A stretch of DNA of 30,641 bases from a virus, in the IMG/VR virus record IMGVR_UViG_3300013286_000037, positions 1-30,641 of that record. One strand, given 5' to 3'. Of the stretch, positions 1,506-18,839 are shown piece after piece (position 1 is the stretch's first letter; the number at the start of each line of letters is the position of its first letter). The notes beneath the pieces were generated by a model, which was not told where the DNA came from, did no database searches, and saw nothing but the letters and a program-made list of their open reading frames with translations. Both the position numbers and the translations under genes were made by a program.

Positions 1506-3704
1506 TTAATGTATATTCTTAAAAGGGTTTCTGGAGGGCTTTTGCATACCTGGCTCACTACTCCTAGTTTGCCCCATATGTCTAAATGCTCCCCAATTTA
1601 ATTTACTAAATTTTTGGGAGTTAACCAAATTTGGATTGCTAACTTCTATACGTTTAGCAAAGCCTCTGTTAGCTTGTTGTACTTTTGCAAAGGCTACTAA
1701 AGCACAATATGCTACAATTCTATCCACGTTTAGGCCATCTCTATATGCTTGCATCTCTTTTAAAAGCATAGGATCTGGTATACGTTCTACACCATAAATG
1801 GTTTTTACTATCTCTCCATCTGGTAAAGTTTCATGGTCTAGTTCTTCTTTTAAAAATTCTATACCATAAGATAGTAAATTTCCTTTAAATAATGTACCAA
1901 CATTTTTCCAGCCATACTCTTGAAACACATTACGATTAGCTCCTATATCTTTTAAGAAGAGTATCATGTCTTTAGGAACTAAATACTTTTGTTTTTTCTT
2001 AGAGATCATATATTGTATAAATAAAGCTACGTTATTCTCCACTACTGTCCAGGCATTATACCATTCTATAAGGAGCTCTAGACGCTCGTGTGTTTTAACT
2101 ATATCATCAAAACGTCCACACCAGCTAGCTACAATACGATCTCTTTCTAATGTGTTCCCCACCTTACCATCTCCATCATCTCTTATTACTTCTATAGGAC
2201 TCTTGTATATGTATATAGAACATAATGAATCTGATGTTGTAGTTTTACCTTCTCCTACTGGATCCACTGAACCATAATACATTCCAAATGTAGGATTTTT
2301 ACAAGGTCTTTCATAAATACAAATAACTCCTTCTTTGTCTTCTGTCTTTTTAGATAGAGGAAATTCCATAATAGGAATCTTTCTAGATGGTTTATCTGTA
2401 ACCTTTCCCTCAGCGTTTCTATATAATTCTAGATACTCCACTGGATATTCTTTATCAGCTATTCTTTGTAACTGTTTGGAAACCAAGTGACTAGGAAACA
2501 CACTCGCTTTTCTTGTAGCAAATGCTTCTTCTATAGTACGTGGTTGCTGAGATATTGTTAACTGATAAGCTGCCGGATCAAGATCTTTTTTCATCTTTTC
2601 AAACTCAATATCTAATGCTGCTAATGCTTCTTTTACCAAAGAGTTTCCATACTGATCTATATAAGGAGGCATAGACCATTGTTCAGGAATAAATAATCCT
2701 GATATACCTAGTGTACCATTATTGTCTATAAGATTGGTGGGTACACCATAGAATCCATTTTCTTCTGGAGCTAATACATATTTCTTTAAAGGCTCACATT
2801 GATCTAGATCACCCACAGATCCTGCAGCTATAAATTGTCCTGTGATAAGATGACCAGATTTTAAAGCTGGTTTCATAAATCCATATGTATCATCCATTTT
2901 TGGAGCAATACCACCTTCCTCATGAAAGAAATAAGTCACAGGACCCCCAACACCATTTGTAGGATCTTTTTCAAATGAATATGAGTTAATAGTAGATTTT
3001 AATCCTCTATAAGTATCTCTACCTCCTATTCTCACTTTAATCTGTTGGTTCCATGCCCCCACCTTATCAGGTTCAGATGGTCTATACCATGCTGTATGCT
3101 CATTTAAAAAGTTTTTATATTCATTTAAAAACTTCCATGAACCTTTCTCATTGATATAATCTTTAAGACTAGCTCCTATTTTAAGAACAGCTCCTTCTTC
3201 AAATACCCATTGGTTAATAAACTTAGCCATATGAAAATAAGAAGATGCTATCTGACGTTTCTTTAAAATAATAGCATGTCTATAATGTAATTCTGCTAGA
3301 TGCTCATAAAGAGCCATGTGATATTGAGCATCTCTAACCTTAGCAAAGTCAAATCTTTTTTCTTCTTTATCATAAATGGGTAAAAAGTTTAACCACATAT
3401 AATAATCTCTAGAAATATACCATGTGTTTTCTTTACCATGATATATTACACCATTTCTACATTTAGATTTTTGACCATCCCAATAGTATATAAAGTCTTT
3501 AGTCTTTATAGGAGCAGAACAATAATATCCTTGCTTCTGAAACTTACGTCCTTCTTCATTAAAAATAAAACTAGTTTCATCAAAGTGATATTCACCAGGT
3601 TCTTTAAATAGAGGAACTAAAAAAGCTCTAAAATCTTCTAGAGTTTCAAATTCAGTTATGGACCATGTACCGTCATGGTTATATGTAGGTACAATTTTAT
3701 ACAA
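1506..3704 (-). CDS. terL: Terminase large subunit (TerL)
   Basis: 732 residues, the usual size for crAss-like TerL. It is the ATP-driven packaging motor with a C-terminal RNase H-fold nuclease that cuts the concatemer. Visible motifs: a deviant Walker A at about residues 147-155 (KKRQIASSY, no GKT), Walker B with catalytic Glu in VTYFFHEEGG near 257-266, and nuclease acidic residues D481 (GSVDPVGEG), E556 (VVENN) and D661 (NVDRIVAY). The N-terminal 100 residues are rich in W/Y/F, typical of this group. The start at 3704 overlaps the upstream gene by 8 nt. The gene is intact, with no intron or frameshift. Portal follows downstream, as expected for a packaging cluster. Confidence 0.93.
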   Translation of the reverse strand: MYKIVPTYNHDGTWSITEFETLEDFRAFLVPLFKEPGEYHFDETSFIFNEEGRKFQKQGYYCSAPIKTKDFIYYWDGQKSKCRNGVIYHGKENTWYISRDYYMWLNFLPIYDKEEKRFDFAKVRDAQYHMALYEHLAELHYRHAIILKKRQIASSYFHMAKFINQWVFEEGAVLKIGASLKDYINEKGSWKFLNEYKNFLNEHTAWYRPSEPDKVGAWNQQIKVRIGGRDTYRGLKSTINSYSFEKDPTNGVGGPVTYFFHEEGGIAPKMDDTYGFMKPALKSGHLITGQFIAAGSVGDLDQCEPLKKYVLAPEENGFYGVPTNLIDNNGTLGISGLFIPEQWSMPPYIDQYGNSLVKEALAALDIEFEKMKKDLDPAAYQLTISQQPRTIEEAFATRKASVFPSHLVSKQLQRIADKEYPVEYLELYRNAEGKVTDKPSRKIPIMEFPLSKKTEDKEGVICIYERPCKNPTFGMYYGSVDPVGEGKTTTSDSLCSIYIYKSPIEVIRDDGDGKVGNTLERDRIVASWCGRFDDIVKTHERLELLIEWYNAWTVVENNVALFIQYMISKKKQKYLVPKDMILFLKDIGANRNVFQEYGWKNVGTLFKGNLLSYGIEFLKEELDHETLPDGEIVKTIYGVERIPDPMLLKEMQAYRDGLNVDRIVAYCALVAFAKVQQANRGFAKRIEVSNPNLVNSQKFSKLNWGAFRHMGQTRSSEPGMQKPSRNPFKNIH

Positions 3705-3933
3705 GATTATTTAAATAACTTGGGTTATGAATTACTTTACTAGCTAGCTCTACAACAGTAGTTAATTGAGAAGATCTAATTATACCTTCACAATTATAGT
3801 TATTCCAATACTCTGTTAATTTTTCTCTAGGAATTGCTGCCCAATTTCCATCAGGTCCATTATGAAACACCCATAAGTTTAATACATTAACATTAGATGG
3901 AGTTTCAAAATCAGTGTATACTTCTTGTGACAT
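3697..3933 (-). CDS. Hypothetical 78-aa protein upstream of TerL
   Basis: Soluble protein with a central aromatic segment (LNLWVFHNGPDGNWAAI) resembling a small beta-sheet domain, then an amphipathic helical C-terminus. Its stop overlaps the TerL start by 8 nt and its start overlaps the upstream membrane gene by 23 nt, so it is a translated member of the packaging operon. No family recognised; a terminase small subunit is conceivable only from position and is not shown by motif. Confidence 0.65.
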   Translation of the reverse strand: MSQEVYTDFETPSNVNVLNLWVFHNGPDGNWAAIPREKLTEYWNNYNCEGIIRSSQLTTVVELASKVIHNPSYLNNLV

Positions 3934-4099
3934 ATTTTTTTATTTTATAAATTAACTCTTCAAAAAATTGTATTATTGACATAATCAGTAAACCAACATA
4001 TACTAATATCATCACAATAAGAATATATATTTTAAGTTTTAGTGGTACTTTTAAAGGTTTGTCATGATACGATCCCACAACCTTTTTAATAATTCCCAT
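3911..4099 (-). CDS. Small single-pass membrane protein
   Basis: 62 residues: a basic N-terminus (Lys-rich to about residue 24), one long hydrophobic helix at about 25-45 (IYILIVMILVYVGLLIMSIIQ), then a basic tail. The positive flanks fit an inner-membrane anchored peptide. It overlaps the following 78-aa gene by 23 nt. Function unknown; holin-like or envelope-modifying roles are possible but unsupported. Confidence 0.6.
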   Translation of the reverse strand: MGIIKKVVGSYHDKPLKVPLKLKIYILIVMILVYVGLLIMSIIQFFEELIYKIKKYVTRSIH

Positions 4100-4133
4100 A
4101 CTGCAATTATTATAATAATTTTAAAAAGCATCT

Positions 4134-4784
4134 TTATTGTTTAGTAAATTTAAAACCTGTTAATTTTTCTACCTCTATTAAATCTACTTGGTGAGAATGT
4201 AATCCTATAGATTTATTTGTAGTGTTAGCAAAAAGGTATGCTTGGAATTCTTTAGTCTTTTTAAAATAAAGCACCTTCCAACATAGTGCAGGTACTGTTA
4301 TATTTCCTATTACTTTTTTAGGATAAATTTCTCCTATGTTACCTGTCCATACAAATATAGAATCATGCAATATAGCTTGGTCTCTTGTATATACTTCTAA
4401 TGTTTTCCAATCACCTGCATTTAAAGCATGATACTGTGGACTCATATTAGAAAAATAAAAACACTCCGTCATAACTATAGGACCTGAGCATCTATTGCTA
4501 GCAGCAGGACACATATGACCTCTATCAAGTCCTGAGCCTACATAGTCATTAGCAATACTAGTATAAAGTATTAAATCAGGATCTGCTTGAAACTGATCCT
4601 TACGTGGAAGTGGGTCAGGACAATTATTTTTAGCTCTAGTCTCCCACCACTCTACTAACACAGGATAACGTAAAGATTTAGAAAATACTGTAGTGTAATT
4701 TAAATGCTTAAGACGCACAGTGTCTTGAGAATAAGAAAATAACACTAATAAAAGAACTAATACTAAAAAAACAAACCGTTTCAT
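4134..4784 (-). CDS. Secreted DNA/RNA non-specific endonuclease (NUC, beta-beta-alpha-Me)
   Basis: 216 residues. A clear Sec signal peptide (KR, then a Leu/Val/Phe core to residue 17, and a Bacteroidota-style SYS-Q cleavage site near 19-20) precedes a Serratia-nuclease type domain. The catalytic DRGH motif is at 87-90 (SGLDRGHMCPA), the NMSPQ motif at 113-117, and the metal-ligand region LNAGDWKTLE at 121-130 with N122 and E130. Such enzymes degrade double- and single-stranded DNA and RNA with Mg2+. The export signal implies action in the periplasm or outside. Neighbours are a tRNA-like gene upstream and a membrane peptide plus terminase downstream. Possible roles are host DNA degradation at lysis, exclusion of competing phage DNA, or viscosity reduction; these are inference. 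Confidence 0.9.
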   Translation of the reverse strand: MKRFVFLVLVLLLVLFSYSQDTVRLKHLNYTTVFSKSLRYPVLVEWWETRAKNNCPDPLPRKDQFQADPDLILYTSIANDYVGSGLDRGHMCPAASNRCSGPIVMTECFYFSNMSPQYHALNAGDWKTLEVYTRDQAILHDSIFVWTGNIGEIYPKKVIGNITVPALCWKVLYFKKTKEFQAYLFANTTNKSIGLHSHQVDLIEVEKLTGFKFTKQ

Positions 4785-4811
4785 ATATTAAATTTTATAA
4801 ATTACAAAGAA

Positions 4812-4845
4812 CATAGTGGGAGATATCATCCCTGCAGCTACTATG
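4812..4845 (-). other. Hairpin between tRNA-like gene and NUC nuclease gene
   Basis: Inverted repeats CATAGT/ACTATG (4812-4817 with 4840-4845) and GGGA/TCCC (4818-4821 with 4829-4832) form a stem with a one-sided 7-nt bulge. It lies between the tRNA-like gene and the start of the nuclease at 4784. No long U-tract follows, so it may be a processing or mRNA-stability element rather than a terminator. Confidence 0.4.
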
Positions 4846-4862
4846 CGTTTTATCTGCTTTGC

Positions 4863-15874: not shown

Positions 15875-16504
15875 ATGAAACTTAAACATGTAAAGTTTAA
15901 TCATGAAGCTGAAGGTTTTTATGATGCCATCGGTATTACAGATGATATAATGATGAAATGCAGAGAACGTATTTTATTCAGTACATTTACTAATGCCTTA
16001 CAAAGTATAGAACTATTTGAAGACAGAAATGATGCTCCAAGAGAGTTAACAACTATCACTGGAGATTTTCAAAAAACTTTGTCTATTATAGAAGATGAAA
16101 TAGAATATGCTTACACTCTAATGGAATTTAGTAAAACTCATGAAATGGGCGTAGAAGCTTTTGCTAGATGGGAACTTCAAAGAAGAGCTAAAAATTCTAA
16201 AACGAATAAAAAGAAATCTATGATGCTTGACATTATGGATATGCTTACAGAACTTAAGATGGAGCATGAAAAAACTAGTAATGAAACTGCGGATATAAAC
16301 TTAAAATATGGTTTTACTCCTAAAGGTCTTCTTAAAAGAGTAGAGCTCACTAAGAATTCACAGTATGATTTTAATGTTTATCTTAATATGGTTGAGAGAT
16401 ATAATCATAGCAATCAGTATGATAGAAGTAAAGACTCTGATACTGATATTGATGATTTCTTAAGAAACATTCTTAATCAGAATGATGAAGATGATGATGA
16501 TTAA
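15875..16504 (+). CDS. Hypothetical helical protein with acidic tail (209 aa)
   Basis: A long helical core (about 15-140) with Lys/Arg-rich segment RRAKNSKTNKKKSMM near 109-123 and a strongly acidic C-terminus (DIDDFLRN...NDEDDDD, about 189-209). Acidic tails of this kind occur in ssDNA-binding and replication accessory proteins, and the next gene is a wHTH replication-type protein 12 nt downstream. No fold recognised. Confidence 0.65.
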   Translation: MKLKHVKFNHEAEGFYDAIGITDDIMMKCRERILFSTFTNALQSIELFEDRNDAPRELTTITGDFQKTLSIIEDEIEYAYTLMEFSKTHEMGVEAFARWELQRRAKNSKTNKKKSMMLDIMDMLTELKMEHEKTSNETADINLKYGFTPKGLLKRVELTKNSQYDFNVYLNMVERYNHSNQYDRSKDSDTDIDDFLRNILNQNDEDDDD

Positions 16505-16516
16505 TAAAAGACCATT

Positions 16517-16795
16517 ATGTCTAATAGATTAAAAGCTGGATTTGGACAACCTTCTAAGGTTGTCCTTACAGATCCACATATAGATTTAAAACTAAAAGGT
16601 CTATATGCCTATCTTTCAGCTTATGCTTCTAGTACAACTGATGAAACTTTTATTAGTGTTGATAGAATGGCTGCTGAAACAGGCACTGATAGATCAACAA
16701 TAAATCGGCTGTTAAAAGCTATGATAGAAAAAGGTATAATATCACGTGTAAGACGTGGTAAAAATACCACTGCAATAACAAAATTAATTAGATAA
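16517..16795 (+). CDS. Winged helix-turn-helix protein, replication-initiator type
   Basis: 92 residues. LKLKGLYAYLSAYASSTTDETFISVDRMAAETGTDRSTINRLLKAMIEKGIISRVRR is a clear wHTH with recognition helix at about 58-70 and wing at 75-90. It matches the HTH domain found in plasmid and phage replication initiators (HTH_36/DnaD-like N-termini), where the domain is usually followed by more sequence; here it stands alone. It could be a regulator. The gene-free RNA region begins about 15 nt after its stop. Confidence 0.75.
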   Translation: MSNRLKAGFGQPSKVVLTDPHIDLKLKGLYAYLSAYASSTTDETFISVDRMAAETGTDRSTINRLLKAMIEKGIISRVRRGKNTTAITKLIR

Positions 16796-16810
16796 AACCG
16801 TATTTAAGTT

Positions 16811-17372
16811 TTAGGAGGGGATTATTCTTTTTTGGTGACAGGTGAAGAATAAGTGCTTTATGCTGTTCTCACATTAGGAAGTCCCCTGCTAGAACAAATC
16901 TTATTTAATGTTTGATATAAAGAGTTTTATAGCGTATTAAAGGTTCACATCGATTGGCAACTAAAACATAGAACTATATTCCTTTATGTAAATGTTAAAC
17001 AACAAGACTGATCTCAGGTGCCTATTAGTAATATTCTGTTGAAGGCAAACCGTTCCCTTACTCAGTAGTACGACATGATGATAGAGCTCCGTCAAACGAA
17101 GCGTAATCATACCTAGTAGCAGTTCTGATGATTATGAACGTAGTCCCTGGGATAGTTTCTTGTTAAACTTATTAGATTAAGCATCTGGAACACTTGAATA
17201 TTTAGGTTCGAGTGGAAAGAAGGATAAACAGCCAGCCTATTGATATTAAGAGCTATGCTCCCAACTCATGAACGTATTTCCAGTACTTCTGCTTAATCTA
17301 TAATTTATTACTATGTTAACGAAAAGATTATATAAACCTCGGCATGACCGGTAGTGGTGTATAAGGAGAGAT
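16811..17372 (+). ncRNA. Large ornate structured RNA, family unassigned
   Basis: About 560 nt with no ORF, immediately upstream of tmRNA. Exact helices: TTATTCTT/AAGAATAA (16822-16829, 16845-16852) inside AGGGGA/TCCCCT (16816-16821, 16882-16887); a pseudoknot TGTTCT/AGAACA (16864-16869, 16891-16896) crossing it; AACAAGA/TCTTGTT (17001-17007, 17158-17164) with CTCAG/CTGGG inside; an 11-bp TAGATTAAGCA/TGCTTAATCTA (17173-17183, 17290-17300) enclosing CTGGAA/TTCCAG and the 8-bp hairpin CACTTGAA/TTCGAGTG (17191-17214). Length, position in a phage next to a tRNA-type RNA, and complexity recall ROOL and GOLLD RNAs; I could not confirm either. Ends are approximate. Confidence 0.6.
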
Positions 17373-17384
17373 GTAGTAACTTTA

Positions 17385-17967
17385 GGGGGTGTATTGATTT
17401 GACAGCACTCTAAATGGTAGTATCACAAGCAAGCCTTGGAACGGGTAAACAAGTTCTAAACAATAACCGTAAAGAGTCAATCTGAGCGTGTTTCTGAAGG
17501 TGCCGCTATTATAGCAATGGCATTTTCTCGTGTAGCAGTAGCTGCATAAGGAAACGGGGTGGTAACAACCTGGCAACAGAAAGTTACAAAATCGTAAGGT
17601 ATTCTGATACTGACAGCTCAAAGGAGTGATGGGTGTGAAAGCAGAATAAATGACTACATCGTCCTAGCCTTACAAATGTTTTCTTAGTTATGTCAAAACT
17701 AAGTGGTGGCAAGTTGTACTTAACCGTATGATCCTAAAATTACTGATCAGTATATGTAAAGAAATGGCGTTTTGTAGATAAAACCGCTACCACGCTCCAA
17801 CAAGGCTAAAGTGAAGAACTCTATTCCTTAACGGTCCGGTCCATATACAGACTCAATTACGGTGCAAAGAGTGTTTGGGATCTTCCCAGCACTATTAGTA
17901 CTAAGCTTGTAACTAAATGGTATTATGATTTGTATGTTGGACGGGGGTTCGTAACCCCCCACCTCCA
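17385..17967 (+). ncRNA. ssrA: tmRNA (ssrA), unusually long
   Basis: Acceptor stem GGGGGTG (17385-17391) pairs with CACCTCC (17960-17966), one G-U. GATTTGACAGC follows as in tmRNA 5' domains. The T arm is GGGGG-TTCGTAA-CCCCC (17943-17959) after GGAC, and AAGCTTGTA near 17904-17912 matches the 3' domain motif. The coded 3' end is A-CTA, not CCA. A tag reading frame ends at TAA 17547-17549; from GCA at 17514 it gives AMAFSRVAVAA, whose end resembles ClpXP-type tags. Upstream GCC/GCT codons are alternative resume points. tmRNA rescues stalled ribosomes and tags products for proteolysis. At 583 nt it exceeds the usual 350-410, with the extra length after the tag. Confidence 0.85.
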
Positions 17968-17989
17968 CTAATTTTTTAAACTTAAAGTC

Positions 17990-18268
17990 ATGGATAACAA
18001 ACATATGTTATTACTCTGTAGTTGTTATAGCTCAGAACATCAAATGATTATACACTTAGATGAAGGCGGTGATATGTTTGCTCCAGAAGCATACGTACAT
18101 GTACATCTAGTAAGACGGTCCTTTTGGTACCGTGTAAAATACGGAATTAAATATATATTTGGATACACATCTAGATATGGAGCATGGGATGAATTTATAT
18201 TAGATAAAACACATTCAGAATCATTTAGACAAATAGCTAAACATTTAGATGATGAAACAGTATATTAA
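17990..18268 (+). CDS. Hypothetical protein with CSC-type motif (92 aa)
   Basis: LLCSCYSSEHQMIIHLDEG at the N-terminus, then VHVHLVRRSFWYRVKYGIKYIFGYTSRYGAWDEFIL. I recall this arrangement (CxCxxxEH, a W/Y-rich basic middle, then WDE) from conserved hypothetical proteins of diverse phages; no function is known to me. CxC plus EH could bind a metal. It begins 22 nt after tmRNA and overlaps the next gene, which has the same RYFFRG/WDD style middle, so the pair may be functionally linked. Confidence 0.7.
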   Translation: MDNKHMLLLCSCYSSEHQMIIHLDEGGDMFAPEAYVHVHLVRRSFWYRVKYGIKYIFGYTSRYGAWDEFILDKTHSESFRQIAKHLDDETVY

Positions 18269-18839
18269 ATTATCTATACCTAAAGATACAGCATGGGATA
18301 ATACCCGTTTCAAATGGGGTAAATATATTCATTGGAAAATAAGATACTTCTTTAGAGGTATATATAACATTATGAGATGGATACCTACACTCTATAAAGA
18401 TAGAGACTGGGATGACGCTTATATATTATGGGTACTTCAAAAGAAAATAGAGTATCAAAGAGATTATCTTGTACATGCTAATAGACATGTAAATATAGAT
18501 TTAGATAATTATTGGATGACTCTATGTCTTAATCTTATAGAAAGAGAAACAGAAGAGTATTATGCAACAGAGTTTTCTGATTATCATGTAACTAATTTAG
18601 AATTTATACGCCCTGATGAACAAGAATGTAGAAAAGTAGATATTAAAATACATTCAGAAAACTATGATGAGTTTCTAGCAAAGTATCCGCATACACTGCG
18701 TATAGTATTAGATAAACATCCTGAAGCTTCTACGTCTAAACATCATCAAGCTATACTAGTAAGTAGTTATAATCAAGTTAAATGTAGAAATCTATTATTT
18801 GAAATTCTTAAACGTAAATCTGCCAATTGGTGGGACTAA
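18249..18839 (+). CDS. Hypothetical protein (196 aa), partner-like of preceding gene
   Basis: Starts with two consecutive ATG codons; the first overlaps the previous stop by 20 nt. A basic aromatic N-terminal half (KIRYFFRGIYNIMRWIPTLYKDRDWDDAY, about 28-60) resembles the WYRVKYGIKYIFGY...WDE stretch of the preceding protein, followed by a helix-rich acidic region and a C-terminus rich in His/Lys/Trp. No enzyme motif seen. Its end precedes the next start by 10 nt. Confidence 0.65.
   Translation: MMKQYIKLSIPKDTAWDNTRFKWGKYIHWKIRYFFRGIYNIMRWIPTLYKDRDWDDAYILWVLQKKIEYQRDYLVHANRHVNIDLDNYWMTLCLNLIERETEEYYATEFSDYHVTNLEFIRPDEQECRKVDIKIHSENYDEFLAKYPHTLRIVLDKHPEASTSKHHQAILVSSYNQVKCRNLLFEILKRKSANWWD

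Follow-up and report, generated by a model that had tools for sequence, protein, structure and literature searches.

The tRNA gene cluster of phage T4 is home to two further RNAs, RNAC and RNAD. These are small phage RNAs that were seen on Northern blots, and their function is still open (PMC9697503). Larger RNAs have been described in similar places. ROOL is a large structured phage RNA of open function that is often found near tRNA islands, and GOLLD, a phage RNA near tRNA islands as well, combines a conserved 3' part with a variable 5' part and sometimes carries tRNAs in its linker (PMC12286853). What large or stable phage RNAs such as T4 RNAC/RNAD, ROOL, and GOLLD do is a long-open question, and the locus described here bears on it. 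The clade to which it belongs offers several small, separable, covarying RNA families that could be cloned and tested singly, and their natural variation, which includes swapped domains, elements gained or lost, and a module in common with tmRNA, points to the working parts.

A gene-free stretch composed of several elements

We analyzed a 30.6-kb IMG/VR virus record over its whole length of 30,641 nucleotides (hereafter, the window). Its terminase large subunit matches Flavobacterium phages and crAss-like phages, cr130_1 and cr124_1 among them, with ~25% identity over ~85% of the protein, and the crAss-like setting proposed in an initial annotation of this DNA therefore holds. The gene 3' of the tmRNA has its relative in a protein of Flavobacterium phages. 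A blastn search of positions 16500-18300 against INPHARED returned no phage record except for a short tmRNA match, and no TAnnTTTG promoter of the Flavobacteria type was found near the island. The description of some 560 nt without a gene was likewise borne out: neither strand contains an ORF of at least 50 aa between 16795 and 17382, and thus none in 16811-17372. This stretch splits into a hairpin, a short copy of an RNA that we term A, RNA A itself, module X, and element E, followed by the tmRNA. The features of the locus are as follows:

16517-16795: gene for a winged-helix protein akin to phage replication initiators; bounds the island on its 5' side in nearly all relatives
16814..16896, + strand: element C', an irregular long hairpin (16814-16888) with a possible H-type pseudoknot (TGTTCT/AGAACA); fold z -3.67 (16811-16900)
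16906..16997, + strand: A', a short second copy of RNA A; 31.3 bits and E 4.6e-8 with covariance model R1, searched in a 1.2-kb stretch with filters off
17002..17161, + strand: RNA A; 129.9 bits with R1, a model built from 16 A sequences of which this is one; 16-sequence alignment with covariation
17173..17300, + strand: module X, with an 11-bp closing stem (17173-17183/17290-17300); fold z -2.44
17308..17381, + strand: element E, a hairpin that ends 3 nt 5' of the tmRNA
17385..17970, + strand: tmRNA, 586 nt; Rfam RF00023, 52 bits versus a gathering score of 47, model positions 1-374
~17591-17669: tmRNA insert 1, ~79 nt, flanked by TTACAAA repeats and closed by GTAAGG/CCTTAC; z -2.40
~17750-17851: tmRNA insert 2, closed by GTATATG/CATATAC

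We compared single-sequence folding of the locus with chance. The MFE of the 589-nt stretch had a z-score of -0.84, and 21 of 100 shuffles folded equally well. Shuffled sequences had 11.2 exact helices of at least 7 bp, compared with 8 in the locus; in 1-4 of 60 shuffles, varying by run, the longest helix reached at least 11 bp. The helices quoted in the initial annotation are indeed present, including TGTTCT (16864-16869), complementary to AGAACA (16891-16896), and the 11-bp stem formed by TAGATTAAGCA (17173-17183) and TGCTTAATCTA (17290-17300), but in the single sequence they do not exceed chance. Two sub-parts fold unusually well when taken alone (16811-16900, z = -3.67; 17170-17303, z = -2.44). 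It is the comparison with relatives, rather than the single-sequence fold, that identifies the stretch as structured but made of several elements. Element C' occupies the position at which relatives have RNA C or a tRNA, a match of position alone; no homologue of 16814-16896 was found.

Searches against known RNA families gave tmRNA as the one match above chance in the window (16700-18000, Rfam, E up to 10, permissive filters), with no ROOL and no GOLLD. In two relative islands searched with E up to 3, nothing but tRNA and tmRNA exceeded the gathering score, and the ROOL model had no match at its gathering score in 13 relative loci. The resemblance to ROOL and GOLLD that had been suggested from length and setting was thus not upheld by Infernal, as neither model matches.

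RNA A and other families in related islands

Blastn detected the core of RNA A (16989-17155) in ten of 50 viral loci recruited by the gene 3' of the tmRNA, and pattern and profile searches raised the set to the 16 distinct sequences, the window included, from which R1 was built. The carriers are crAss-like phages of one clade, and A resides at one conserved locus, 3' of the winged-helix gene and 5' of the anchor gene or its neighbors; since all carriers belong to one clade, this conserved position could reflect inherited synteny. In the window, the closing helix joins 17007-17018 to 17146-17156 with G17010 bulged, and A further contains an inner helix (TTAC/GTAA) and a conserved core, AGTAGTACGACATGATGATAGAGCTCCGTCAAACGAA. 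The alignment yielded a 15-bp closing helix and the inner helix, both with two-sided changes. Over 19 pairs, 98.3% of the cells were paired and 11 pairs showed two-sided change; the 34 two-sided cells compare with 10.9 in shuffles, and 0 of 500 shuffles reached that number. Slid controls were 23-53% paired, a comparison in which the true alignment has an advantage, because it was made by sequence and the structure was then read from it. RNA A is a new family, which sixteen related crAss-like phages preserve through compensatory base-pair changes.

Covariation likewise supports two other families: RNA B (11 sequences; 38 pairs, 19 of them with two-sided change; 97.6% paired; 44 two-sided cells versus 15.0 in shuffles) and RNA D (15 sequences; 97.0% paired; 18 two-sided cells versus 6.6). 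The covariation analysis that the initial annotation had proposed therefore did find compensatory changes in homologues, for A, B, and D. The elements C, F, G, H, I, J, M, and N each recur by sequence in at least two loci. G folds with a z-score of ~-4.7 in the two loci tested, M adjoins tRNA genes in L017 and L025, and J adjoins tRNA-Asn in L009. Islands that also hold tRNAs or a tmRNA are those of L011, L014, L017, L052, and L060.

Whole-record searches with R1 gave one strong match per relative record; the window has two copies of A. Since the whole-window search with default filters omits A', this call rests on the local R1 search, on a local match with the 5' half of A sequences from other phages, and on the same closing helix, TTT-[G]-ATATAAAG (16911-16922) with CTTTATGT-AAA (16982-16992). 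A first reading of 16906-16997 as RNA D was replaced by that of a short A copy, based on the local similarity and R1. Run with stricter filters on 395 genomes from the phylum of a Prevotella MAG, R1 had 0 matches, and so did the exact core pattern of A in genome_contigs. A search via a ParB-like gene that neighbors A yielded many distant relatives of that gene and no further A beyond the known clade.

The islands are mosaic in their order. L005, L011, L014, and L015 have either lost the central domain of A or carry another in its place, so that A is itself modular. Six phages have the ParB-like gene as the 3' neighbor of A and six have RNA B; otherwise A is followed by an unrelated ORF, the anchor ORF or, in the window, X, E, and the tmRNA. 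The order in L052, C-D-A-B-tmRNA, resembles that of the window. Elsewhere, protein genes of ~735 nt lie between A and B, elements are gained and lost singly, and in L006 and L015, A stands alone with an ORF directly after it. Such intervening genes and independent gain and loss speak against the single ornate 560-nt RNA that had been described initially. The ParB-like protein, which has a DGQHR motif, is a candidate partner of A, and its gene lies directly 3' of A in the following loci:

L003: 3924-4658
L009: 3985-4719
L013: 3998-4732
L016: 3919-4653
L060: 4607-5341, - strand
L017: 1983-2729

The closing helices have one feature in common. A single bulged G, in the pattern NNU-[G]-AU...AU-RNN, was found in A, A', D, and, in four phages, the G elements. 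All 16 A sequences and all 15 D sequences have this G. The pattern had 49 matches in 16 islands, as opposed to 2-11 in shuffles, and coding stretches of equal length had 12; since many of the 49 are homologous, the independent support lies in the recurrence in three families and not in the count. Because the signature also occurs by chance in AT-rich DNA outside islands, we used it only within covarying or recurrent families.

Several tRNA genes in these phages carry unusually long inserts (L017 2771-2885; L005 295-400; L060 3795-3887, - strand). That of L017 is apparently located in the variable arm and comes with a second T-arm-like hairpin. In L025, a tRNA array (2940-4850) is mixed with apparently structured RNA elements; among them, at ~3854-3962, is one whose acceptor stem is tRNA-like (GCCGGAG/CTCCGGC) but which has no recognizable T-arm. 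M and N elements also recur in other phages of the set, outside the A islands (L017 2886-3419; L014 275-487; L027 536-599), and they had no Rfam match in the L017 island.

The tmRNA and modules found inside and outside it

The RNA at 17385-17970 matches the Rfam tmRNA model, has the acceptor stem, and contains a tag reading frame that ends ...SQSERVSEGAAIIAMAFSRVAVAA (...VAVAA), as aligned with four relative tmRNAs; ARAGORN misses it. It is 586 nt long versus ~420-430 nt in L017, L052, and L060. Relative to L052, it has two extra segments, the inserts listed above. In the 11 A-bearing relative records, which were searched whole or as loci and some of which may be fragments, a tmRNA scored over threshold in G007, G008, and G009 and was weak but recognizable in G010, whereas G001-G006 and G011 gave no match. 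An RNA class coupled to tmRNA, as postulated initially, does not fit this distribution: with most A carriers (7 of 11) showing none, a coupling of A to tmRNA is not supported. The occurrences support an assignment of the RNAs to clusters of the tRNA/tmRNA type, as opposed to a tmRNA-coupled class.

Within module X, 17215-17287 is 82% identical (blastn, 61/74) to L054 2844-2916, which there forms the interior of a tmRNA. The L054 tmRNA is ~680 nt long, with visible ends and tag, and scores 30.2 bits in Rfam, below threshold. As X lies outside the tmRNA in the window and inside it in L054, modules move between RNA genes. Element E has a counterpart at L060 4387-4313 (82.7% identity, 75 nt); in that phage it comes after RNA B and ~530 nt from the tmRNA, with other RNA and a tRNA between them. 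We also considered 17173-17300 as a member of RNA B on account of a shared layout and rejected it: the best overlapping + strand match of R2, a covariance model of the RNA B 3' domain, had 3.8 bits (E 1.6). MAFFT misaligned X with this domain.

Possible roles and comparison with known RNAs

The explanation that we favor, at about even chances, is that the stretch belongs to an island of stable phage RNAs, namely a tRNA/tmRNA-type cluster with short structured RNAs of new families that would act in trans (A, A', X, and E here; B, C, D, F-J, M, and N in relatives). The elements and the tmRNA or tRNAs would be transcribed as one long untranslated RNA, which would then be cut apart into separate stable RNAs that act in trans during infection. 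The bulged-G helix of A, D, and G could serve as a common handle for a processing or binding protein. By analogy with the location of T4 RNAC/RNAD and of ROOL/GOLLD, the RNAs would most likely act on the translation or tRNA metabolism of the infected cell. A broader version seems possible to us, though rather doubtful: the bulged-G closing helix may define a superfamily of phage RNAs, with arrays that shuffle domains between tmRNA and RNAs that stand alone. CrAss-like phages would then have a modular economy of RNA domains, together with a protein dedicated to binding or processing them.

Alternatively, the elements may act in cis, either as put-like RNA antiterminators or as leaders that shield long untranslated RNA against termination or control the gene that follows. 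Tandem A-type helices 5' of an untranslated tmRNA and intergenic positions would suit such a role, and because a T-run follows the closing helix of A in several phages, another possible reading of A is that of a cis element, terminator-like or otherwise. We nevertheless hold cis action to be unlikely, as the downstream gene varies by phage, an attenuator would not need a conserved core as elaborate as that of A, and A is present where neither tmRNA nor tRNA was found. It is quite unlikely that the elements are mobile or selfish modules residing in RNA genes (tmRNA, tRNA variable arms) and kept without function, by splicing or as tolerated expansion segments. Module X inside the L054 tmRNA, the window tmRNA insert between TTACAAA repeats, and the long tRNA inserts of L017 and L005 are in line with such modules; however, each phage record has a single A, found at one conserved locus instead of being scattered, Rfam gave no match to a ribozyme family, and the conserved core sequence and covariation of RNA A imply selection on the RNA. 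Given one copy per phage, a fixed locus, varying downstream genes, and strong structural conservation, we favor an RNA that acts independently and in trans; a leader or a mobile element fits these traits less well.

The trans-acting island also has to be weighed against one large ornate RNA of 560-590 nt, perhaps with the tmRNA as its 3' part, that would self-assemble into a cage in the manner of ROOL or GOLLD. Its length and location resemble theirs, the window elements are nearly contiguous (16814-17381), and GOLLD offers a precedent for conserved 3' and variable 5' parts with tRNAs at times in the linker (PMC12286853). Against this stand the closing helices that bound each element, the lack of a ROOL or GOLLD match at E up to 10, the ~735-nt protein genes that part A from B, and the solitary A followed by an ORF in L006 and L015, which make a single RNA very unlikely. 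Extremely unlikely, in our estimate, are decoys against host defenses that target tRNAs or other RNAs: the RNAs are located in a tRNA/tmRNA cluster, and their turnover and exchange of modules would be expected in such a conflict, but Rfam and ARAGORN find no tRNA-like sequence or structure in A, and no link to defense was found.

Compared with ROOL, a single RNA (659 nt in the solved case) that forms a nanocage, the locus consists of separable elements of ~75-160 nt. Many GOLLD members exceed 800 nt and have a universal 3' domain, whereas here the units are closed and separable and the model does not match. The two are alike in mixing conserved and variable domains and in their nearness to tRNA genes in phages or prophages (here the tmRNA and the tRNAs of relatives), a trait that is not specific to GOLLD. 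In T4, there are two small RNAs, seen on blots, while the islands hold several RNAs each, with module exchange and sometimes a tmRNA; RNAC and RNAD have no known sequence relation to the island RNAs. The tmRNA family, finally, is represented in the locus by a member of its own, set apart by its structured inserts, and also contains module X within the tmRNA of a relative.
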